Virus record (IMG/VR): IMGVR_UViG_3300012931_000072
Coordinates: 1-25,308 of that record
Source: a virus
Strand: one strand, 5' to 3'
Length of the DNA stretch: 25,308 nt
The notes beneath the pieces are model-generated. The model saw only the letters and a list, made by a program, of their open reading frames with translations. It was not told where the DNA came from and did no database searches. Both the position numbers and the translations under genes were made by a program. Below are positions 2,344-25,305 of this stretch, piece after piece. Position 1 is the first letter of the stretch; each line of letters starts with the position of its first letter.

Positions 2344-3762
2344 TTATATGCTTGCCGTTGAAGCTATTACCATTGTGACTGTTATCACCCCGCCTGTCCC
2401 GGAGCCGGTTTTCGGGAATTCCCCATCATTGATTACGATATCTGCTGTAGGAGATGTAACAATAATTTTATAAGCCGCTGCATTTGAATTTTTTCCAACC
2501 CTTATGATTTCATCAGTAAGAATATTTTGGCCTAATTGCCGAGTATTTACGTATTGTTCTATTGCAGTTTGAACATCTAATTTTATTTCATCGAGATCAA
2601 CTGCAACGGTTGGAAGCCTGTAGACAGTAACGCTTATATTCACATCAACAATAACTGGAGTTGTGATATTATAATCTATTCCAGCGCAATTTTTTCCTGG
2701 ATAATTTATCAAATCGTTGGGATCACCATAAAGAACTTTTTCTATTGATGCAATTAATGATGCACTCAATGATCCGCTTCCATTATCAACGATTATTGTA
2801 TTTGTACCCTTGAATGGATAGGCGCTTCTCATTCCAACGGATCGTATTCCAGCTATTCCTTTTATGGCTGCAATAATTCCATATTCAGTCCCAGCATTTA
2901 ATGCATTGACCGTTTCTGAAAATCTTATTCTCCTAGATTCATCCGTTTCTGCGTTCGATCCACCGCTGAAAGCACTATCATTGATACAATTTTCGACCCC
3001 TGATATTTGAGAATTTATATATCCTTTTCCGTTGGCGGTATCTACTGCATGAACAGAAATATTCCCAAGCGGTCCAGTATTCCCGACTTGAGAAAGCAAC
3101 TGTACTCCGGACTCTCCAGCAAGGATCGTTCCGGAGATAGTGCTTACAATTTGCATGCTATTTATTGTAACAGAAAAACTTGGTATCGATATCGCTGCCG
3201 CTGTTGCAATCATTATATCAAAACCAAGAGTGTTCAAATAATTTTTTGTTCCAATGCATTCTTTCGCTGTATATTGATATAATAAATCTGAATCGATATC
3301 ACTAACGAGTGTCGCACTCCAATTGGAGAGAGCATTTATCGCATTCACCAAATCACTTGTTTTTGGATATGTAGAATACGAAAGATTGAAATCATCAGAA
3401 GGAACTCCTGTTACTGAACTTGAAATCGCCGTTCCGCTCGATGTTATCAATGCAGACGATCCGAGGCCGTTGTATTTTATCCAAAGCGCCGGTTTTCTGT
3501 AAGGGCGGATATATCCTGTCGCTGCAATCGCCTCAAGTTTTGAAAAACCAAAACCCTCATACAGCGCAATTGGTATCGCCTTGTAGAGAGCTTCCTTGAA
3601 GCTCATTTGTATGCTGGAAATGATTTCTGAATTTGATTCAACAAGCGCTCTTGTTTTCGCACCTTCGTTGAAATCAGTTAGCCCGACCCCTTTTGATAAA
3701 AGATAAAGTCGATACATTTCATAAAGTTGTTCTGACGTGTATATTTTTAATATATCGGCCAT
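2344..3762 (-). CDS. Baseplate wedge protein, gp6/gp47/gpJ-like (Baseplate_J family)
   Basis: This 472-residue protein matches baseplate J-like wedge proteins (T4 gp6, P2 gpJ, Mu gp47), which form the ring that opens when the tail contracts. The N-terminal part is helical and fits the family start, including a G-A-K-T-R-A-L-V-E-S segment near residue 35. The middle has an A-G-E-S-G-V-Q-L segment, then a D-E-S-R-R-I-R-F segment near residue 275 and a G-T-E-Y-G-I-I-A-A-I-K segment, which are typical J hallmarks. The C-terminal part has beta strands and a P-V-I-V-D-V-N-I-S-V segment. The length is normal for the family. Its ATG overlaps the stop of the LysM-gp25 gene as TAATG. Family assignment is by motif pattern read by eye. 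Confidence 0.83.
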   Translation of the reverse strand: MADILKIYTSEQLYEMYRLYLLSKGVGLTDFNEGAKTRALVESNSEIISSIQMSFKEALYKAIPIALYEGFGFSKLEAIAATGYIRPYRKPALWIKYNGLGSSALITSSGTAISSSVTGVPSDDFNLSYSTYPKTSDLVNAINALSNWSATLVSDIDSDLLYQYTAKECIGTKNYLNTLGFDIMIATAAAISIPSFSVTINSMQIVSTISGTILAGESGVQLLSQVGNTGPLGNISVHAVDTANGKGYINSQISGVENCINDSAFSGGSNAETDESRRIRFSETVNALNAGTEYGIIAAIKGIAGIRSVGMRSAYPFKGTNTIIVDNGSGSLSASLIASIEKVLYGDPNDLINYPGKNCAGIDYNITTPVIVDVNISVTVYRLPTVAVDLDEIKLDVQTAIEQYVNTRQLGQNILTDEIIRVGKNSNAAAYKIIVTSPTADIVINDGEFPKTGSGTGGVITVTMVIASTASI

Positions 3763-5714: not shown

Positions 5715-5903
5715 ATGAAAAAGATAGATAAAGAAATCCTTGAAGTCATGAACGGCCAAGAAATCATTTCCACCAATTACGAAGGATGTGTTATGGTAAA
5801 AGGAAAAGATGTAATCAGGAATGGCAAGGTGGTTGACGCTCTGACTACTGCAAAAAAGGTTAATGTTCTTTGGAAAGAGTTTTTAGAGCAAGAAGGAATT
5901 TAA
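5715..5903 (+). CDS. Small protein of unknown function (62 aa)
   Basis: Not recognised. The gene has its own promoter and a near-perfect Shine-Dalgarno AAAGGAG 8 bases before the ATG, so it is very likely real. The product is small and soluble, rich in lysine, glutamate and valine. An N-terminal helix (K-E-I-L-E-V-M-N-G) is followed by a short beta-type middle (C-V-M-V-K-G-K-D-V-I) and a C-terminal helix containing V-L-W-K-E-F-L. There is no signal peptide, membrane segment or cysteine pair (one Cys only). It lies on the strand opposite to all surrounding virion genes, with its own promoter, as morons or small regulatory and host-takeover genes often do. That role is inference. Confidence 0.72.
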   Translation: MKKIDKEILEVMNGQEIISTNYEGCVMVKGKDVIRNGKVVDALTTAKKVNVLWKEFLEQEGI

Positions 5904-5930: not shown

Positions 5931-6128
5931 ATGAGAATTAAAACATATTTCATGGTTACTCCAAAAGGATTTGCTAGTTCATTTTTCAAGAATAAAAAAG
6001 ATGCAATTATACATGCTAACAAAGAATACCGATTCAGAAATTCAAAAGATGGTTATGACGAATATTGGAACAATCTCCCAATTAAAATTGAGCGGGTGAT
6101 TGAGATAAAATTTAATAAAAATTATTAA
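5931..6128 (+). CDS. Small protein of unknown function (65 aa)
   Basis: Not recognised. It begins 27 bases after the previous plus-strand gene, with AGAGGAAA as ribosome-binding site, so the two form a short operon. The product is basic and aromatic-rich (Y-F-M-V-T-P-K-G-F-A, then E-Y-R-F-R-N, then Y-D-E-Y-W-N-N). The pattern of an initial strand, a helix carrying A-I-I-H-A-N-K-E-Y and a final strand resembles small single-domain phage proteins with an alpha/beta fold. Its stop overlaps the stop of the convergent spike gene by 4 bases (6125-6128), with no terminator hairpin between them, so each strand is probably read through in antisense. No function can be assigned. Confidence 0.7.
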   Translation: MRIKTYFMVTPKGFASSFFKNKKDAIIHANKEYRFRNSKDGYDEYWNNLPIKIERVIEIKFNKNY

Positions 6129-8764: not shown

Positions 8765-10360
8765 CTATTGCGGTACAAACAAATATGATGGACTGTCTTT
8801 TTTTATATTTTCCTTAAATGTTTGGTTTAATGATTCAGCCGCATCTTTACAAGCATTAACTACAATTCCAACTGCTCCAGTCAAATCTTTTAATGCTCCT
8901 GCAACATGTGGAAGCGTTGAATCCGCGATATCAATCATTATTTTTTCCATTGCCAGTGAAGCTTCTGCAAATCCTGCTCCATGTTTAAAAACTAAATCCT
9001 CTTCCATCCCTGCTTTAACTACTCCATATCCAGAATGGCTTCCAATTGTTTCCTTGTATCTTTCCATCAAAGTGTCGAAACCTTTCTTAGATACATCTTT
9101 TGCCGGAGATTGTGCGGCCCTCCATGACGTAAGCCTTTGTGGTTGCGTGTCACTCCACCCTAGTTGATCAGCGATTGTGCTGAACATTTGAAAACCTTCA
9201 GCCCCGGAACCAAATTCTTTCTGTATATTTCGAACAGTTTGCATTTTTAATTTTTCAGGACCAGCTTCGAATGCAGCATTTTTAAAAAGTGTATGAGCCG
9301 CCGCCGGTCCAATTGCATTTTGAATATCCTCGTATGTCGCGTTCGGACCAAGATTTGTCAAGGCTCCGAATTGTTTTCCAGAAATAAGTCCTGATTCAAC
9401 AAGCCTTTTTCGATATTCAATTCCCCCTTCACTTTGATCAGTTATATTTTTTGTTAAAATATCTTTTGTGGCCCCTGCTGCATACAGCCCTTCAAGAGTT
9501 TCACCCATTTTACCTTTTTCTGTTTGAGATTTTACATTTTGAAAACTTTTTATAATATTTAAAGCAGCATCAACGCTTTTACCTGGTGTAAATGTAGTAA
9601 GAGATGAAATTTCATCTCCTATATCTTTCGCCATATCTGAAGTGTTTATTCCAGCCTTGACCGCTTCTTCAAGAATGCTCGATAATCCACTCATAAGAAC
9701 AGGGAGTTCAGTTTCTATTCCCATTCCTGCTCCTTGCTGCGCGGCGCGTCCATATCCAGCGCCCGCACGGGCAAACGTACCAGCTTGGCCGAACACTTCT
9801 CCTGGAGATAGACCAAAAGTAGCCCCAAGATTTACGGCAGTTTGATCCTCTTGTCCATATTTAATATTGTGTGCGAATTTTCCACTTGTGGTTGCATATG
9901 ATTTCATGCCTGATCCCATTTCGGCAGCATTCCACATTCCTTGTCGAAACCGAAATCCGGCTGTTCCTACATTTCCTTTTTGAGCGAGCGTTCTTTCAAT
10001 AAACGCCTGTCCGATTTGATTTACTTTTTGAATTGTAAATCCGGCAGTCGCTACCATAGCCCCAATTAGTGGAAGCGATGCTCCTACCCCCCCAATACCG
10101 GCGCTATCCCTGCCGATCCCTCGACCACCTCCGCTCCCAAGCCCGAGTCCACCCCCTCCGCTGTGCTCAACGGCTCTTGTTAATTTCTGAATTGATGAAT
10201 TAAGACTTTTTAACGAAGTTAAAATTTCTTTATTTATTGCGGGCGCGGCACCAGTTCCCGCTTGCTTTTCGGCACCACGTTGCGCCTGAAGAACCTTTTG
10301 ACGAGTCGCAAGCGACTGTTTTCCAGCCCCGGAATATTCAAATTTTATTTTATAATCCAT
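8765..10360 (-). CDS. Tail tape measure protein (short)
   Basis: A 531-residue protein directly after the two tail chaperone frames, the invariant place for the tape measure. It starts with a basic, coiled N-terminus (residues 1-65) and a glycine-rich linker (~68-95), then a hydrophobic segment with A-S-L-P-L-I-G-A-M-V-A-T-A-G near 93-106 that could cross a membrane during DNA delivery. A long helical body follows, with many A/G/K residues. There is no peptidase or lysozyme motif. Using the usual rule of about 0.15 nm of tail per residue, the tail would be roughly 80 nm, which is short for a contractile tail. The ATG overlaps the end of the second chaperone frame by 11 bases. Confidence 0.72.
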   Translation of the reverse strand: MDYKIKFEYSGAGKQSLATRQKVLQAQRGAEKQAGTGAAPAINKEILTSLKSLNSSIQKLTRAVEHSGGGGLGLGSGGGRGIGRDSAGIGGVGASLPLIGAMVATAGFTIQKVNQIGQAFIERTLAQKGNVGTAGFRFRQGMWNAAEMGSGMKSYATTSGKFAHNIKYGQEDQTAVNLGATFGLSPGEVFGQAGTFARAGAGYGRAAQQGAGMGIETELPVLMSGLSSILEEAVKAGINTSDMAKDIGDEISSLTTFTPGKSVDAALNIIKSFQNVKSQTEKGKMGETLEGLYAAGATKDILTKNITDQSEGGIEYRKRLVESGLISGKQFGALTNLGPNATYEDIQNAIGPAAAHTLFKNAAFEAGPEKLKMQTVRNIQKEFGSGAEGFQMFSTIADQLGWSDTQPQRLTSWRAAQSPAKDVSKKGFDTLMERYKETIGSHSGYGVVKAGMEEDLVFKHGAGFAEASLAMEKIMIDIADSTLPHVAGALKDLTGAVGIVVNACKDAAESLNQTFKENIKKDSPSYLFVPQ

Positions 10361-10814
10361 CAGTTAATCCCCTTCCGCGCAATAAATCCCAAAGTTTCTC
10401 TTGCCTTATTTGCTTCCTGTTTTCCGTATTCTCTGGAATTCCCTCAATTTTTTCTGGAGCTTTTTCTTCTTCTTTTATCCCAAATTCTTTTTTTAATTCA
10501 CTTATTCTTTTTTTCTTTTCAGAAATCAATCTTTCTTTTTTAAGTTGTTCGATATCTCTTCCCTGAAGAATTGCAATATCAATATCAGTTTGTTCGAGCT
10601 TTACTTCTTTTAAATTATTGATTTCTTCAAGTTGTATTTTATAATCAACTTGAATGCTCCAATTTTCCTGACTCGGTATGGACCCTATCAAATAAATTAA
10701 AAAAGCTTTTTGCTCGTCAAGCATATTGTCTTTTTCGCATCCTACAGGCCATATGTTAAAATATTTTATTAAGAATCCATCAATAAAATATTCCGGTTTA
10801 CCCGCTTCAAGCAA
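10350..10814 (-). CDS. Tail assembly chaperone, C-terminal (T) frame, made by frameshift
   Basis: This 154-residue frame lies between the first chaperone frame and the tape measure, like lambda T, Mu and T4-type second chaperone frames. Its first possible start is TTG at 10814, with no Shine-Dalgarno. The frame is open upstream to a TAA at 10832-10830, inside an A-run of the upstream frame. It is therefore most likely made as a fusion with the upstream protein by a -2 (or +1) shift. The product is helical and charged, with a long E/K-rich segment (residues ~75-140, E-K-K-K-R-I-S-E-L-K-K-E-F), which fits a chaperone arm that binds the tape measure. The alternative is an independent start at the internal ATG near residue 30, which would lose the junction. 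Confidence 0.7.
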   Translation of the reverse strand: MLEAGKPEYFIDGFLIKYFNIWPVGCEKDNMLDEQKAFLIYLIGSIPSQENWSIQVDYKIQLEEINNLKEVKLEQTDIDIAILQGRDIEQLKKERLISEKKKRISELKKEFGIKEEEKAPEKIEGIPENTENRKQIRQEKLWDLLRGRGLTDGL

Positions 10815-11160
10815 TAGGTTTATTTTTTTTTAATTTCTCATCGAGATCATTTGTGTGTTTTCTTATTTCAACCGCAACTTCAGATATCAACGAAACATCG
10901 GGCCATTTTTGGCAACTCTCATTTGACTTTAACGGCTCCGGATATTCTTCAATACAGGTATCGTTTATCGCGATATTTTCAAAATAAAAATAATCGTCCT
11001 GAGTGAAAGCTTCAACCGAATTTCCGTTTTGAAGAGCTACTCGGCGCTGTGTTATTTTAACGCGATCTATCGGAGAAATATACCGTATTTTGAAAACAAG
11101 TCCGCCTTCAGTTGTTATCGTTTTGAATTTTTCGTCTTCTAACGTCAACAGGTTCTTCAT
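10807..11160 (-). CDS. Tail assembly chaperone, N-terminal (G) frame
   Basis: A 117-residue protein between the tube gene and the tape measure, of a size and place typical of the G-type chaperone. Its product keeps the tape measure soluble and recruits tube subunits. The N-terminal half has a small beta-type domain (T-L-E-D-E-K-F-K-T, then V-F-K-I-R-Y-I-S-P-I near 22-31, typical of phage tail chaperones with a Y-x-x-P-x-D-R turn). The C-terminal half is helical, with E-V-A-V-E-I-R-K-H-T-N-D-L. It ends ...K-K-N-K-P-I-A just after the slippery A-run. Translation starts at an ATG with AAAGGT about 10 bases upstream, just beyond the terminator that follows the tube gene. Confidence 0.7.
   Translation of the reverse strand: MKNLLTLEDEKFKTITTEGGLVFKIRYISPIDRVKITQRRVALQNGNSVEAFTQDDYFYFENIAINDTCIEEYPEPLKSNESCQKWPDVSLISEVAVEIRKHTNDLDEKLKKNKPIA
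10823..10831 (-). promoter_or_regulatory. Slippery A9 run for programmed -2/+1 frameshifting
   Basis: On the minus strand the upstream frame reads TTA AAA AAA AAT AAA CCT ATT GCT TGA. The nine A residues let two tRNA-Lys slip. The downstream frame is +1 (equal to -2) relative to the upstream one, and it is closed by TAA at 10832-10830 just before the run, so only a shift within the short stretch between that TAA and the upstream TGA (10809-10807) can join the frames. A -1 slip would meet TAA immediately. The fusion would read K-K-(K)-I-N-L-L-L-E-A-G-K. Confidence 0.65.
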
Positions 11161-11219: not shown

Positions 11220-11678
11220 TTAAGAAGTTTGCAGTCCGGGAAGCAGCATCCTCGCCCTCCAGCGCGTTTGACGGTTCATGAGCGCCCCTTGCGCGACCGT
11301 GGTATCACCACCACCATATTTCACCCCAAGAATTGTAAACAGGACGGTGAGTGTATGAATATCGAGTCCAGTGAACGTGTATAGTCCTGAACTGTTGATA
11401 TTGTTGTTTCCATCCGGTTGCCAGCCTGGGATTGATACCGATCCTGCAATATTTGTTCCGCGAAGAAGGAATGTCCCCATGGTCATGTTGCAATCGTATC
11501 CCATGGAAAGCAATTCTCGGAAACCATAATACCCAAGAGTTTGAATACCTTGCAGCATGTAATCTTCACTGACGTTCAAATCAGTGCTGTATGCCATGAT
11601 GGTATTATCCTGCATCAAGAAACAATCTATGCCAGACCCCACCGGGCCGCGTGGCTCACCTGCTTGTCTGAAAGCCAT
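11220..11678 (-). CDS. Tail tube protein
   Basis: A 152-residue protein immediately downstream of the sheath, the standard place for the inner tube of contractile tails. The size is right (T4 gp19 163, other tubes 140-170). It starts M-A-F-R-Q-A-G-E-P-R-G-P-V. The beta-barrel-type pattern includes D-C-F-L-M-Q-D-N-T-I-M-A-Y, then N-V-S-E-D-Y-M-L-Q-G-I-Q-T-L-G-Y-Y-G, a signature-like stretch of tube proteins in many large phages. It ends in L-M-N-R-Q-T-R-W-R-A-R-M-L-L-P-G. The ribosome-binding site GGGAGG lies 9 bases before the ATG. GC content is visibly higher than in the chaperone genes, consistent with a highly expressed structural protein, and a strong terminator follows. Confidence 0.75.
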   Translation of the reverse strand: MAFRQAGEPRGPVGSGIDCFLMQDNTIMAYSTDLNVSEDYMLQGIQTLGYYGFRELLSMGYDCNMTMGTFLLRGTNIAGSVSIPGWQPDGNNNINSSGLYTFTGLDIHTLTVLFTILGVKYGGGDTTVAQGALMNRQTRWRARMLLPGLQTS

Positions 11679-11693
11679 TTTATTTGCCCTCCC

Positions 11694-13457
11694 TTAAATG
11701 TTTTGACCCGGAACAATGAATGTAAAGAAATTGAATGCGAATCTTGGCGTCACACTCATTGTCAGTGTTGCATATGTAATAAATTGCTCCCCATCCTGGA
11801 CGAAGGAGACTCCACTGAATGCGAGTTGTCCATCGGGTCCGTTCGTGATCCATTTGTAATCATCACGGTATTTCGGGAACAAGAATGTCGTGATCCAGTT
11901 TTGAATTGTGGAAATAATAACCGAATTCGCAACAGAATCAAGGGCGCGTATTTTTTCGATTATTTGTTCTTCATAATCTTTTGTAAGAACATTTATCGAA
12001 TAAACTACACTTGGATTTGTCCTTGTTACCTGGCTGCCCTGGAACGTGGTGTTATTGCATTTTATTTCAAAATTGTTTTCATTGTTTGCATTCGCTGTCT
12101 TTTGAATAAAAGTTGCTCCAGCGGCAGCGTAGTCTTTTTTGTCCTGAGTTGATATTTCAGGAGTCGAAAGAACATTGAGATATTTAAAAACTATATCCAT
12201 CCCCACGTTGTTCGAATATCTGAATCCTGCGATCATCGCATAAAGATAATAAGGAAGGAATGTGGCGTCTGCTACCTTATTAACGTAATCGTATCTCTTA
12301 AAAGAAGAAACACAATATTCGATATATGCCGAATTCAGGGCTTTCATTTCAGCGATTCGAAGTGCTTTTGTTGTCTGAACGCTTCCCGCGCCGAACCCTG
12401 CTTGTCGGTACATTTTTTCTTGGATCGAATTCATCCGTTCGCAATGATCCTGAACAAGAAGATGGATCGTTTCGCTTCCACTCATACATACGATATTATT
12501 GATATTGTATTTTTCGAGTTTCACGAGGGCCGCTGTCCAGTCGGCAGTTGTCGCGGCTGATACTGTCCCTCCGGTAAAATATTGGTATTCGCTGAGATTA
12601 TCCGGAACGGTCCTTGCCGCTGCCGCATGAAGAGCCGCAAGCACAGCCCCGGTCCCATTGAGCAACCTGATAATTGCTTCAACGATCCCTACGCAGCTAT
12701 AGGAAGATTTTATATTTACTGCCGTAACCGCGTCAAAAACATTTGGAAGTTCGTCGCTCAATCCCGTAAGAAGACATGTGTAATTCGCCTGGGTATTGAT
12801 GAAATTTATCAATGACCCTATATCGGAATAATCAGCGAGCGTGATATCGAGATCATCGGCAGGAGTCGCCGCACAACTCGTGGTAAGCTTTGTCGCGGTT
12901 ATTGTCATCGTTGCCGTTGCTGCCGCTCCTGTGTAAAGAACGGACATAAGCGCGAGCGTCACGTCGTCCTGTTTTAAAATTTCGGAACCCTTGTAAAGAA
13001 TTTGAACGAGTTTTCCAGTATTCGTCCCCGTGCTGACTTTGACGGCCATTGTATTTCCGTCTGTCCCGTACTTTATGGAGGAAATATCAATAATCGGATT
13101 TGCACTTGCGTCAAGCTCCGTTGATGCTTTTGTCATCTGGTTGACAACAATACAGTTTGCAACACTTGGCTTGTTGAACCGTTCATCTTTGTGAGGAGTT
13201 AAGAAAAATTCAGCACCATAATAAACATCCCCACCGCCAAAAACTTCGAGAGCTTGCGATTGCCCTCCGTCGATCACGTTGATCACATCTTCAGCGTCAT
13301 CGAATGCGGTGTAAGGAATTCCACCCTTTGCGGCCTCTCCCATGATAACGGAAAGTCCGGTAACGGCACCCGCTCCCTGGTCAACCGGGAATTTTCTTTG
13401 TGTATATGCTCCTGGAAGAATTATTTTTTGCCCTGCGAAATCATAATACTGTGCCAT
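11694..13457 (-). CDS. Tail sheath protein
   Basis: A 587-residue contractile sheath subunit, close in length to T4 gp18 (659) and other sheaths. The N-terminal segment has L-P-G-A-Y-T-Q-R-K-F near 14-23, a typical sheath start where the protein wraps the tube, followed by G-L-S-V-I-M-G-E-A-A-K-G-G-I-P. A variable domain (~100-300) projects outward. The conserved C-terminal region has T-N-P-S-V-V-Y-S-I-N, then L-D-S-V-A-N-S-V-I-I-S-T-I-Q-N-W-I, then A-F-S-G-V-S-F-V-Q-D and T-M-S-V-T-P-R-F-A-F-N-F. The ATG at 13457 has TGGAG 8 bases upstream. The sheath-tube order and spacing (15 bases) follow the usual pair. Contraction of this sheath drives the tube through the host envelope. Confidence 0.9.
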   Translation of the reverse strand: MAQYYDFAGQKIILPGAYTQRKFPVDQGAGAVTGLSVIMGEAAKGGIPYTAFDDAEDVINVIDGGQSQALEVFGGGDVYYGAEFFLTPHKDERFNKPSVANCIVVNQMTKASTELDASANPIIDISSIKYGTDGNTMAVKVSTGTNTGKLVQILYKGSEILKQDDVTLALMSVLYTGAAATATMTITATKLTTSCAATPADDLDITLADYSDIGSLINFINTQANYTCLLTGLSDELPNVFDAVTAVNIKSSYSCVGIVEAIIRLLNGTGAVLAALHAAAARTVPDNLSEYQYFTGGTVSAATTADWTAALVKLEKYNINNIVCMSGSETIHLLVQDHCERMNSIQEKMYRQAGFGAGSVQTTKALRIAEMKALNSAYIEYCVSSFKRYDYVNKVADATFLPYYLYAMIAGFRYSNNVGMDIVFKYLNVLSTPEISTQDKKDYAAAGATFIQKTANANNENNFEIKCNNTTFQGSQVTRTNPSVVYSINVLTKDYEEQIIEKIRALDSVANSVIISTIQNWITTFLFPKYRDDYKWITNGPDGQLAFSGVSFVQDGEQFITYATLTMSVTPRFAFNFFTFIVPGQNI

Positions 13458-16958: not shown

Positions 16959-17390
16959 TTACAGATTTCTCTTATAATAAAGATACACTTGCGCTGCATC
17001 AGCTTCGGCATTTGAGAATACCCTCACCCCATCGGCGGTGACGTATTTATACGCATCATCGATGGAAGCAGCCCTGGCAATCGTTTGATCGGTTGCGCAC
17101 GTCATCACATCAGTCACCGCGTTGACGCCCGATCCTGTTTTTACTTGCATTGTACCGCCCGCACTCGATACGGTCGGAATAACCTTCACGTCGATTATTT
17201 CTGAACCGATTGGAATTACGGCGGCTATGCCGACACTGGAACCACTTGCAAGAGCCGCGACAGAAACTTCGGAAACAAGGATGGAAGAAGCCATTTCTGA
17301 CTTTCCCCATTCCTTTTGAAGTCTTTGCATTGCTTCAAGATTCGGATTCCCGCCCTGGCCTGTGTCGTCCGAGCTTTGATGAATAGTCAT
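16959..17390 (-). CDS. Capsid decoration / head-fibre-type protein, copy 2
   Basis: A 143-residue, beta-rich protein and a clear paralogue of the next gene upstream (about 40-50% identical by eye). Shared marks are M-T-x-H-Q-S at the start, I-P-x-G-x-x-I-I-D, G-T-M-Q-V-K-T-G, I/V-T-D-x-M-x-C, R-A-A-[ST]-I-D-D-A-Y, A-D-G-V-[RK]-[VI]-F-S-N and a V-Y-x-x-Y end. The N-terminal ~30 residues differ most and may anchor to the capsid. It has a strong ribosome-binding site (GGGAGG). Such proteins follow the major capsid gene in many large phages and decorate the shell. The copy number and surface location are inferred. Confidence 0.6.
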   Translation of the reverse strand: MTIHQSSDDTGQGGNPNLEAMQRLQKEWGKSEMASSILVSEVSVAALASGSSVGIAAVIPIGSEIIDVKVIPTVSSAGGTMQVKTGSGVNAVTDVMTCATDQTIARAASIDDAYKYVTADGVRVFSNAEADAAQVYLYYKRNL

Positions 17391-17403: not shown

Positions 17404-17820
17404 TTACTTGATGTACTCTATGTAAACATCTCCGCGATCCAGCGCCCCGTTGGAAAAGATTTTAACGCCATCCGCGCCAACGAGATTGTAAGCGTCATCG
17501 ATTGTCGCCGCACGATCAATTGCGCCTTCGGTGTTGCAATCCATCGCATCGGTAATGGCCGATGGTGAAGTCGCTCCGGTTTTGACTTGCATTGTACCGC
17601 TTCCATTCGAAGACGTACAAACGACATGCGCGTCAATGATTTTTGCGCCCACGGGTATATCAACGGCAATACCCGCAACGGCAGTTGCCGTTATGGATGT
17701 TTTTGAAACCCTCAAGGCAGCCGAGATATTCGATTGAGTCCAGTTATTCTGAATAAATGCAGAAGCATCAAGATTCGGGATACCTTGGCTTTCGTCAAAT
17801 GCACTTTGATGAGCAGTCAT
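17404..17820 (-). CDS. Capsid decoration / head-fibre-type protein, copy 1
   Basis: A 138-residue protein with AAAGGAG 6 bases before the ATG, and a paralogue of the gene that follows. It begins M-T-A-H-Q-S-A-F-D-E-S-Q-G-I-P-N-L, with a helix (A-S-A-F-I-Q-N-N-W-T) and then a beta-sandwich-like domain with V-D-I-P-V-G-A-K-I-I-D, G-T-M-Q-V-K-T-G-A and R-A-A-T-I-D-D-A-Y. It ends R-G-D-V-Y-I-E-Y-I-K, typical of small phage decoration proteins. It is small, acidic-neutral and without a signal peptide, so it is made in the cytoplasm and joins the capsid there. Family naming is by pattern only. Confidence 0.62.
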   Translation of the reverse strand: MTAHQSAFDESQGIPNLDASAFIQNNWTQSNISAALRVSKTSITATAVAGIAVDIPVGAKIIDAHVVCTSSNGSGTMQVKTGATSPSAITDAMDCNTEGAIDRAATIDDAYNLVGADGVKIFSNGALDRGDVYIEYIK

Positions 17821-21769: not shown

Positions 21770-21949
21770 TTATTCAGTGATTATCTCCTTGCATTGTTTG
21801 CATTTTGCCTTGACTTTTCCCGTTTTCTTGTCCTGGTGCAAAAGTGTGATATTCCGATAAAGAATTTCTTCATCGTTTTCAATAGAATAAACGGTGTTGC
21901 ATTTTGGGCATTTGTTTTTAATCCCATTCTCAATTGTTATGCCGTACAT
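21770..21949 (-). CDS. Small zinc-ribbon protein (59 aa)
   Basis: A 59-residue gene that fills the gap before the head promoter. The ATG at 21949 overlaps the stop of the giant upstream protein as TAATG, and GGAGG lies 11 bases upstream. The product has two CxxC knuckles, C14-P-K-C17 and C50-K-Q-C53, separated by ~32 residues with a helix and strands between (E-E-I-L-Y-R-N-I-T-L-L). This is the layout of a small zinc ribbon (Com- or YjfA-like phage zinc fingers are possible relatives, not proven). Such proteins can bind RNA or DNA or partner with virion proteins. The stop at 21770 is followed by a T-rich stretch but no strong terminator. The function is unknown. Confidence 0.72.
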   Translation of the reverse strand: MYGITIENGIKNKCPKCNTVYSIENDEEILYRNITLLHQDKKTGKVKAKCKQCKEIITE

Positions 21950-24900
21950 TATTTTTTAACCTCCACTTTTTTCTTTGTCGGTTCATTCGGTTTTTTAGGT
22001 GAAGTCTTTTCCTGTTTTCCGCCAAGATTTATTTTTGTTTTCTCTTTAATTGCTTCGCCCGTACTTTCAACCGCTTCCCCGGTCGGTTGATTCGGGTTTT
22101 TCCCTGAGAGGGCATCAGCAAGAATTGTCGCCATCTTCTTAAGCGATCCCCTTATTATTTCCATTTTGGGATTCGATGATTTTTTCTCTCCTGGTTTTTC
22201 TTTCTTTTCATCTTCTTTCTTTTCACGTTCTTTTTTGCCTTTTTCTTTTCCGTCACTTACCGGAACCCATTTCCCTTCAGCCTCTTTCCTACGTCCATGG
22301 GAAACGGTGCCGATGGGCATTTTTTTTGCTTTCGCAAGTTCGGAGAGAAGAAGAGAAGAAGCTTTTTGCATTTTATCCGCGTTTATATGTTTTCCATTCG
22401 CAATTGCTTTTTTGAAATTGTCTTTTCCTGCTATTGAGAGTTGTTTTTTTGCATTTTCAATTGCAAGGTTTTTATTGTTTCCCTGTCCAACTTTCAATCC
22501 GGTTTTCTTTTCTGAAACAGAATATCCACCATTGGGTGATTTTATAAGAAAAAGTGATTCCCCCCATACACTGAATTGTGATTTTATATCTTTCGGCTCT
22601 ATTATCTTTTCCGCTGAACCTGTGTTTATTTTAAATACTTCATTTTTATTAATTTTTACAGGCTCCCATCCTTGATCTTTTATATTGTTTTCAATATTTT
22701 TTTTATTTTCTTCTTCATTTTTTTGAACTTGAATTATGTTTTTTTCCCATTTTTCGCGAGCTTGTTTTAATTGGTTCGAATCGAGTTTCCCATTCCCAAG
22801 TTCTCTAAAAAAATCTTGAACAACATTCATTTTAGATGGAACCCTTGTTTTTTCTATAGTATCTTTGAATTTATGTAATTCTTCTTTTATTTTTTTATAT
22901 TCAACTTTGTCAAATCCCGGCAACCCTAAGTCATTTAACCTATCCGCAGAATCCAGTGTTCTCACTCGTGTATCCTTTTCCCAGTAATCATTATATATGT
23001 CCGAATAAAGAGATGGGAGATAAATTTTATTCAACTCCATTAATGGATTGTGATCACCTTGTGCGACATAAGATGCAGCCTCAAATACGGCTGGTTTATC
23101 TATTTTTTTTCCATGATGTTTTGCAATTATGGATGCAAATTTCATTATTTTTTCAGGGTCTATTTTTTCATTATTTTTCAAAAGCTCAATAATATTTGGA
23201 GCGTCTTCGCTTCCTTGTAAATATTCTTTATCCAATCTTTTTATCTTGTCGAGAAAGTTCTCATTTTGAGTGCCATCAGACATAATTTCTCTTTTGTCAC
23301 CTGTTGTAAGATGCTTTTTAACCTTCTCCCAATCAATTTTCCCGTCTTTTGCTATTGCATCTATTTTTTCCAGTCCTTCTCTCAATTTGTTGTTTGCCAT
23401 TCCATCGAATTTTTTGCTTTCTTCATTTACATATCTTATCAATGCTGATTTATTAAAATCATTCATCGCATCTTTCCCGAATAAGTCATCAATACGAGAA
23501 GATACTTTCTGATTACTTTTTATATACTCACCTCTATCTTGCTCTCTCTTCTCCTGTCTCTCTGTGAATTGAGTTATTTTTTCTTCTTTTTGTGAAAGCT
23601 TAAATTCTGCATTATCAAATTCGGAATCGAAATTTGAATAATCCGGACCTACAACTAAGTCATTTCCGGATTTTTCTATTCCTGGAAACATTTTCATCAG
23701 TTTAAATTTTTCATCATCAGTAAATTTCTTGCCTACTTCTCTCGGAATAATTACCCTTGTTTTGCTGCTATATTTTGAACTCGAAACAACTCTCGGCTTC
23801 AACATATCCTTTCCCGACATAACTGCGCTTTTGTCTTCAGGTTGGTTTGAATTTTCTTTCTCTCCACCCGAAACAAATCCAGCAATCTTCTTAATCAACC
23901 CCGTGTCCCATCTGCTTCCCGACTCGGACTTCGATTCTCCTTTACTCTTGCTTTTGCTTTTTTCGGTTTTCGAACTCGTCGATCCCTTTTTCTCTCCTGG
24001 AGCTTTATTGAATTTCGTATCCCATTTATCTTTATTTGATAGATACTCATTCATGTGATCAGAGAATGTTTTTTTGTCAACTCCGGAAAGTTCAGACTTT
24101 TTGGAGTTGTATATCTCATTTACTTTTTCTTTCGCTTGCTTTTCATCCTTGAATCCGAAAAACGCCATTATCCCTGAAAGAATTCCCCCAGTCCTTTTCT
24201 CTTCCCCTGGTATCGTTCCATTCTTCTTATACTCTTTGTATTGCTGGGCATTATAAAAATAAATGTATCCCTTTCCTGTTTTCTTTGGAACACGACGAAT
24301 ATATTTGTAACTTTTTGCTTTTTCCATTGATTCTTGTTTTGGAATAACTTTGAAGTTTAGTCCATCTTTTTCAAATGAAAGATTTGCATATTTAGAATGT
24401 CCATATCTTTCGAACATTCCTTTCAGGGCGGATTGATAGGATTCTATTTTTTTTGGTTTTAATTTTCCATCTTTATCATAAAATTCATCTTCGCTATATA
24501 CCTTCGGTTTAAATTCCATCGAACCATCTTCTTTTTTAATAACTGTTTTATGACCTATAGTAATTCCACCAATCGATTTTATTGCAAAATCTGAAATATC
24601 TTCTGGAAGTCTCTTCATACCATGAGTCTTTCCTATAGACGGATTATCTTTTTTTTGTTCAGGAATTTTTCCTGTTTTATTGTATTCACTTAATTGCTGA
24701 TTGTTGTAAAAATAAATATATCCTTTCCCCTTCGGGTTAAGAAGTCTTTTTATATATTTATGCATTGTCGCCTTTTCCATGGACTCATTTTTCACGACAT
24801 GAATTTTTCCATCTTTATATTGCAAAGATACTTTTCCGTTAAGAGCATTAAATCTTTTCTTTTCGAAATCCATCTTTCCACCACGAAAAACAGCGCGATG

Positions 24901-25305
24901 TTCCGTCGACATGCTCTGCATGTAATCGCTGAATTTCGCGTGAAGCTTGCTTGGAGTGCTCACGTCCTCTGAAGTCGAACTTCCCGAGCTATGCTCGCTG
25001 TGTTTGTGCGCTCCGGATTCTTCAACAAGCTTCCAGTTCCCTTCACTTATTTTGCGATACTGCTTTCCATCGGCCCACGTCGCCGTTTCACCTATTGCGG
25101 CCTTTTTCGCTTTTTCCATCGCACGTCCGCTTTCCGACATCGCGATTGCAACAGCCTGTTTATAATCAGTGACCTTTTTCCCATCACTTGATTTCAAAGT
25201 ACCCATTTTGAATTCATGCATTACTTTTTCGAATTTATCATCAGAAACAGCTTTCTCAAGGTTAAGATAAAGACCATCATAAATTTGAATCATTCTCTTT
25301 TTCAT
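21949..25305 (-). CDS. Giant modular virion/head protein (5' end may lie outside window)
   Basis: At least 1118 residues. The first ATG seen is 3 bases from the window edge and the frame is open beyond it, so the true start may be upstream. Residues ~24-60 match a short module with M-H-E-F-K-M-G-T-L-K-S-S-D-G-K-K-V-T, like the DUF6496-type segment of phage head proteins. Modules K-Y-I-[KR]-R with G-K-G-Y-I-Y-F-Y-N occur twice (~183-219 and ~334-370), each after E-S-M-E-K-A. The pair [AP]-I-G-[ET]-T/V with a G-K-x-[YW] end occurs near 70-95 and again near 997-1015. Long charged helical regions lie between. The C-terminal 90 residues are K/E-rich and disordered. It has no recognisable enzyme. 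It is co-transcribed with the zinc-ribbon gene and could be an internal head or ejected protein, or a polyprotein cut by the protease. Confidence 0.65.
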   Translation of the reverse strand: MKKRMIQIYDGLYLNLEKAVSDDKFEKVMHEFKMGTLKSSDGKKVTDYKQAVAIAMSESGRAMEKAKKAAIGETATWADGKQYRKISEGNWKLVEESGAHKHSEHSSGSSTSEDVSTPSKLHAKFSDYMQSMSTEHRAVFRGGKMDFEKKRFNALNGKVSLQYKDGKIHVVKNESMEKATMHKYIKRLLNPKGKGYIYFYNNQQLSEYNKTGKIPEQKKDNPSIGKTHGMKRLPEDISDFAIKSIGGITIGHKTVIKKEDGSMEFKPKVYSEDEFYDKDGKLKPKKIESYQSALKGMFERYGHSKYANLSFEKDGLNFKVIPKQESMEKAKSYKYIRRVPKKTGKGYIYFYNAQQYKEYKKNGTIPGEEKRTGGILSGIMAFFGFKDEKQAKEKVNEIYNSKKSELSGVDKKTFSDHMNEYLSNKDKWDTKFNKAPGEKKGSTSSKTEKSKSKSKGESKSESGSRWDTGLIKKIAGFVSGGEKENSNQPEDKSAVMSGKDMLKPRVVSSSKYSSKTRVIIPREVGKKFTDDEKFKLMKMFPGIEKSGNDLVVGPDYSNFDSEFDNAEFKLSQKEEKITQFTERQEKREQDRGEYIKSNQKVSSRIDDLFGKDAMNDFNKSALIRYVNEESKKFDGMANNKLREGLEKIDAIAKDGKIDWEKVKKHLTTGDKREIMSDGTQNENFLDKIKRLDKEYLQGSEDAPNIIELLKNNEKIDPEKIMKFASIIAKHHGKKIDKPAVFEAASYVAQGDHNPLMELNKIYLPSLYSDIYNDYWEKDTRVRTLDSADRLNDLGLPGFDKVEYKKIKEELHKFKDTIEKTRVPSKMNVVQDFFRELGNGKLDSNQLKQAREKWEKNIIQVQKNEEENKKNIENNIKDQGWEPVKINKNEVFKINTGSAEKIIEPKDIKSQFSVWGESLFLIKSPNGGYSVSEKKTGLKVGQGNNKNLAIENAKKQLSIAGKDNFKKAIANGKHINADKMQKASSLLLSELAKAKKMPIGTVSHGRRKEAEGKWVPVSDGKEKGKKEREKKEDEKKEKPGEKKSSNPKMEIIRGSLKKMATILADALSGKNPNQPTGEAVESTGEAIKEKTKINLGGKQEKTSPKKPNEPTKKKVEVKK

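Follow-up and report, generated by a model that had tools for sequence, protein, structure and literature searches.

Recoding in the tail assembly chaperone genes is among the best known and most conserved of phage recoding events, and it is regarded as ribosomal and mostly of the -1 type. In the lambda G/GT pair, and in tailed phages generally, the two chaperone frames lie after the tail tube gene, a short chaperone is accompanied by a rarer, C-terminally extended form, and the second frame has no start of its own. The locus described here appears to share this plan, its tail tube gene being named by position, and departs from lambda in its site, since lambda makes a -1 shift on a heptamer whereas here the second frame lies in the +1/-2 register at a run of nine A's (A9) with a stop in the -1 frame. 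Natural -2 shifts are rare. In phage Mu the G/GT gene pair is joined by a -2 shift at ~2.2% (PMC3498833).

The locus lies in a virus record of 25.3 kb (IMGVR_UViG_3300012931_000072, positions 1-25,308), which was analysed over its whole 25,308 nt and is called the window below. A contractile-tail module occupies its minus strand, and TC1 and TC2 denote the two chaperone frames:

11694 to 13457, minus strand: tail sheath protein (phrog_279 tail sheath, E 6e-36)
11220 to 11678, minus strand: tail tube protein, upstream neighbour of TC1, called by its position after the sheath
10807 to 11160, minus strand: TC1, probable tail assembly chaperone and zero-frame product, 117 aa (phrog_1038, model, BFVD matches)
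10350 to 10829, minus strand: TC2, second frame (+1/-2), 159 codons, a predicted C-terminal extension of TC1 by ~158 aa, with a homologous frame in every relative
10823 to 10831, minus strand: A9 run, the putative slip site (a T run on the plus strand), TTA AAA AAA AAT in the TC1 frame
10820 to 10822, minus strand: stop in the -1 frame immediately past the run, here TAA, in all relatives either TAA or TAG
10807 to 10809, minus strand: TGA stop of TC1 in the zero frame, four codons past AAT
8765 to 10360, minus strand: probable tape measure protein, 531 aa, the gene after TC2, assigned by position only, which is the same in relatives
2344 to 3762, minus-strand tail module: Baseplate_J gene, among the baseplate genes beyond the probable tape measure

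The order sheath, tube, TC1, TC2 and next gene is kept in relatives, where the tube is upstream of TC1 in every case and is 72-91% identical in the closer ones; the tube and tape measure are named by position only, and the gene at 8765-10360 found no PHROG match. Elsewhere on the minus strand of the window, two adjacent genes near the major head protein (16959-17390 and 17404-17820; 143 and 138 aa) are apparent tandem paralogues with an MTxHQS... N-terminus, a truncated ORF (2-1687) carries repeats of ~35 residues (GGVLAPNGDIHFIP...GQKINSSGVVSTY) and is perhaps a tail fibre or adhesin, and an ORF of 1118 aa at the window edge (21949-25305) contains repeated YI[KR]R...K.GKGYIYFYN.QQ..EY.K.G.IP modules. 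Two small ORFs of 62 and 65 aa (5715-5903 and 5931-6128) lie on the plus strand within the tail module and are possible accessory genes.

Re-read on the minus strand, the 3' end of TC1 is ...GAG AAA TTA AAA AAA AAT AAA CCT ATT GCT TGA, and the slip site encodes LKKN, the last residues common to both products. TC2 (10829-10350) is in the +1/-2 register relative to TC1, the TAA that closes its frame overlaps the start of the A9 run, its first start-like codon, TTG at 10814, is not preceded by anything resembling a Shine-Dalgarno sequence, and a -1 slip reads AAA TAA, stopping at 10820-10822. An earlier note made from this DNA had given the same end of the upstream frame, a downstream frame in the +1/-2 register that is closed just before the run and has only a TTG start without a Shine-Dalgarno sequence, and an immediate stop upon a -1 slip, all of which we read likewise. 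It had concluded that a G-T fusion is made by a probable -2 (or +1) shift; the chaperone pair, the A9 junction and the net +1 (= -2) register are supported, a ribosomal, Mu-like -2 shift is one candidate mechanism, and transcriptional slippage, which the note did not consider, is at least as likely.

The identity of TC1 was approached through profiles and a predicted structure. Ten of 13 members of the TC1 family matched phrog_1038, 'tail assembly chaperone' (best 5.4e-6), the best PDB match of the AlphaFold model (pLDDT 89.7) was the HK97 tail assembly chaperone 2ob9, a weak one (E 0.098), and the BFVD matches included named tail assembly chaperones from phages of Bacillus, Lactobacillus and Rhodococcus (probability 1.00). 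The PHROG matches and the fold comparison together support the assignment of TC1 as a tail assembly chaperone. The TC2 model is helical (pLDDT 77) and a fold search with it gave no meaningful match to a known fold. Every relative has a homologous TC2 frame, conserved from the first residues past the run (KI-L--E). There is no ATG, GTG or TTG before codon 19 of TC2 in L010, L019, L021 and L022, the first possible start is at codon 35 in L048 and codon 60 in L092, and the Leptospira phages have none before codon 12-20; residues 1-18 are conserved in relatives without an early start, and some relatives have ATG, GTG or TTG at codon 5-6. The lack of an early start in several relatives, together with the conserved residues just past the run, indicates that TC2 is an extension of TC1 and is reached from it. 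As in pairs of the G/GT type, the second frame overlaps the first, is without a conserved start of its own and is kept in relatives. These comparisons support reading TC1 and TC2 as the G/GT-type tail assembly chaperone pair of a contractile-tailed phage, joined at A9 with a net +1 (= -2) change, and the TC1-TC2 fusion is very probably made. TC1 (117 aa) would then be most of the product and the fusion of ~270 aa a minority, arising through a net shift of +1 (or, equally, -2) at the A9 run.

In the LE1-like Leptospira prophages and the contig L078 (L057, L061, L062, L067-L078), TC1 meets no zero-frame stop for 94-102 codons after the run, a stretch that covers most of TC2. When synonymous TC2 sequences were simulated, only 0.05-0.27% of draws gave such an open frame, a rarity which suggests that both frames may be coding in those loci.

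Relatives were gathered from scans of viral contigs with the sheath, tube, TC1 and TC2 and from searches of phage records, and yielded 33 junction-bearing loci in ~24 distinct lineages, comprising uncultivated relatives (18 including the window), Leptospira prophages, LE1-like GenBank phages, the metagenomic LE1-like contig L078 and the isolate LE1 (L130). Many loci were recovered through the sheath, the tube or the downstream part of TC2, so that for them the A9 run was no search criterion. Phage records gave no match to the TC1-TC2 region in a DNA search for distant similarity, nor to the tube or the L019 TC2 in tblastn, and genome contigs gave none to the tube and LE1-type TC2 profiles.

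The earlier note had proposed surveying related phages for conservation of the run, and the outcome is uniform. The junction is [CT]TA AAA AAA AAT A[AG]N in 33 of 33 loci, with exactly nine A's in the same codon phase, and every one of the 33 places TC2 in the +1/-2 register and a TAA or TAG in the -1 frame; cases that would speak against the fusion (a conserved start or Shine-Dalgarno sequence, an in-frame fusion, separated frames) were sought in the relatives and none was seen. This uniformity spans considerable divergence: within the window's clade, the TC1 most distant from that of the window is ~31% identical to it, and profile comparison links LE1-type TC1 to that of the window's clade (97.8%, E 1.2e-12) and LE1-type TC2 of Leptospira to window-type TC2 (probability 95.8%, E 7e-9). 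The 12-column block A9-T-A-[A/G] (columns A1-A9, T10, A11, R12) is invariant in 23 of 23 lineages, with LE1 as a further lineage, and the flanking columns vary on both sides apart from T at 0 and T at -1 (22 of 23 lineages). L078 and LE1 have CTA in place of TTA, which indicates that the first T is dispensable and the A9 run is not.

At the slip site, the codon usage of these phages would readily allow synonymous changes. The chance of A9T arising from synonymous codon choice for Leu-Lys-Lys-Asn is 0.005-0.46 per lineage, and these values multiply to ~1e-21 on the assumption of independent lineages, which holds only in part; L092 retains A9 though AAA makes up only 37% of its Lys codons (P 0.005). 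Judged by these codon statistics, the conservation of the A9 site is not due to chance, and the constraint is on the DNA rather than on the protein. The stop in the -1 frame is kept as well. Arg codons directly after the site are AGR without exception. A CGR there would change no residue in either frame and would cost nothing but the -1 stop; AGR makes up 37-75% of the Arg codons, and the product over nine lineages, not fully independent of one another, is 0.005. In LbrZ and LE1 the codon after AAT is AAC (Asn), so that the feature kept is the -1 stop and not a Lys or Arg residue. Second A9 runs were also noted, ~21 bases upstream of the site as in-frame AAA AAA AAA in L070-L074, and before the chaperone gene in L017 (2426) and L078 (4610).

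Which machine slips on the run was approached through a homopolymer census, in which ~186,000 codons of these phages were compared with synonymous-codon permutations. Runs of A6-A8 occur at 1.07-1.18 of expectation, and those of A7 and A8 that hold an in-phase A_AAA_AAA at 1.36 and 1.57 respectively; A9 runs fall to 0.51 and runs of A>=10 to 0.05, and no T>=9 run was seen against 8.6 expected. Bacterial RNA polymerase slips on runs once they reach nine A's, the same length from which many genomes show selection against runs (PMC5009743, PMC1088944); Baranov and co-workers read avoidance from nine in many bacterial genomes as selection against transcriptional or replicational slippage, two causes which, as they state, run-length avoidance cannot separate (PMC1088944). 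The threshold at nine favours transcriptional slippage over a -2 or +1 ribosomal shift, since A9 is present in every locus, runs of at least nine are avoided elsewhere, and shorter A runs are not. We found neither a conserved RNA structure 3' or 5' of the site (mean z ~0 at +5..+40) nor a conserved Shine-Dalgarno sequence at the site in relatives, and the census and the absence of stimulators fit transcriptional slippage better than a ribosomal -2 shift.

We therefore place moderate confidence, on sequence grounds, in slippage of RNA polymerase on the A9 run as the mechanism behind the fusion. Under this mechanism mRNAs with 9 (or 12) A's would give TC1, mRNAs with 10 (one gained) or 7 (two lost) would run at once into TAA or TAG and give an essentially normal TC1, and rarer mRNAs with 8 or 11 would give the fusion, with the junction ...LKKI... 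or ...LKKKI.... The -1-frame stop, present in every locus, would thus dispose of the commonest slip product. RNA polymerase inserts A's more frequently than it deletes them (PMC6260861), a bias that fits a stop in the frame opened by one added A, the -1 frame. Against transcriptional slippage, it does not strictly require that the codon phase and the TAR stop right after the run stay fixed over so great a divergence, a constancy that common descent or a ribosomal mechanism could explain, and the E. coli RNA polymerase slips less readily on A than on T runs (PMC6260861). A search of 12 records for a phage-type single-subunit RNA polymerase, which would be very slippage-prone, gave no match, and neither did the control, so that this negative carries little weight. 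More tentatively, a large and old group of contractile-tailed phages, uncultivated and of the Leptospira LE1 type, may set its chaperone ratio by RNA polymerase slippage on A9-TAR, with an obligatory -1 stop turning the commonest slip product into the normal short chaperone.

A programmed -2 ribosomal frameshift on A9, as in Mu G/GT, would give the junction LKKKIN and is a possible, if rather doubtful, alternative. It might take the form of two successive -1 slips, the first in tandem on A_AAA_AAA. With TAA or TAG then in the A site and tRNA-Lys paired to AAA in the P site, a second slip would follow. Such a two-step shift would use all nine A's, the fixed phase NNA AAA AAA AAT and the invariant -1-frame TAA/TAG, and the exclusive use of AGR over CGR after the site preserves exactly that stop; the fit of the phase and the immediate TAR to a -1/-1 slip, together with the Mu precedent in the same gene pair, ranks it second. 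On the other side, in-phase A_AAA_AAA in A7 and A8 runs is not avoided and is even enriched, and as this class has not been emptied, host ribosomes seem not to slip there harmfully; nor was a stimulator found.

The register would equally suit a programmed +1 ribosomal frameshift at AAA_AAU, in which the P-site tRNA-Lys moves one base forward and the junction is LKKIN with no extra Lys, and a +1 tail-chaperone shift has been reported for the Bacillus myophage Moonbeam (PMC4299906). In distant sheath relatives (Aeromonas ST4, Bordetella PHB04, Pseudomonas Dolphis and Touem01, Bacillus Goe26 and SBSphiC) the second chaperone frame likewise lies in the +1 register, with the junction TCC/TCT/ACC TTT CGN, which resembles the +1 site of influenza PA-X type (PMC3498833). 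A +1 shift needs only AAAA and not nine A's, however, and in most of these phages AAT, the A-site codon, is the usual one for Asn and not slow, with no stop or rare codon as at known +1 sites. The demand for only four A's and the lack of a slow A-site codon make it the least favoured of the three slip agents, and we consider it unlikely. Neither the window's clade nor the LE1-like phages have the YCC/UCU UUU CGN motif at the end of TC1; it was found only in the distant sheath relatives, where the junctions are at L058 8390, L060 8563, L064 7402, L065 ~7315, L059 8533 and L066 7533. Window-type TC1 and that of the ST4/PHB04/Goe26 group were related by hhalign with a probability of only 20%, and we do not claim shared descent. 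If the chaperones are homologous, the slip site and perhaps also the mechanism were replaced without any change of register.

A reading without recoding, in which TC2 is translated on its own after re-initiation or from a weak TTG start, is highly improbable: it could draw on the TTG at 10814 and on the start codons at codon 5-6 in some relatives, but comparison of the relatives rejects an independent start, there being no conserved start or Shine-Dalgarno sequence and starts only from codon 19-60 in L010, L019, L021, L048 and L092, and it leaves unexplained both the conservation of TC2 from the run onward and the invariant A9. Homopolymers are error-prone, but a sequencing or assembly error splitting one real gene is refuted, to a negligible remaining chance, by the same nine A's in independently sequenced metagenomes, Leptospira prophage genomes and GenBank isolates.

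The group to which the window belongs is deeply conserved, differs in its slip site, never lacks the -1 stop and may rely on another slipping machine. The prediction tool PRFect omits -2 shifts (PMC10885494), and tools that leave out -2 and transcriptional events, like annotations such as that of LE1-0032/0033, miss fusions of this kind. LE1, a culturable phage of the saprophyte Leptospira biflexa, bears the site, which makes the mechanism testable there; its genes LE1-0032/0033 and those of the LE1-like prophages are direct homologues with an identical site, annotated in LE1 as separate genes, and in most of the prophages the zero frame runs 94-102 codons over TC2. Mu has the same gene pair and, if the shift here is ribosomal, the same net register; the slip site here differs in being A9TAR, conserved over a large group, with transcription as a serious alternative agent. 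The SPO1-like and ST4/PHB04-like myophages, with +1 shifts at YCC/TCT/ACC TTT CGN, share the register of the second frame and have detectably related sheaths, but their slip sequence is wholly different and the TC1 relation is weak (hhalign 20%). We found no report of transcriptional slippage in phage tail chaperones in the literature searched. Programmed transcriptional slippage at A9-A11 is known from Thermus dnaX, IS elements, Shigella spa13/mxiE and Citrobacter tssM, and these cases resemble the present one in having a homopolymer of at least nine, a stop close by in another frame and no stimulators of translational shifting; their two length variants have a predicted counterpart here. If the mechanism here is transcriptional, the same gene pair and register as in some other phages would be recoded at another level of gene expression. 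In dnaX, ribosomal frameshifting is used in some bacteria and transcriptional slippage in others, and the possible switch of machine in the tail chaperones would be comparable to that case.
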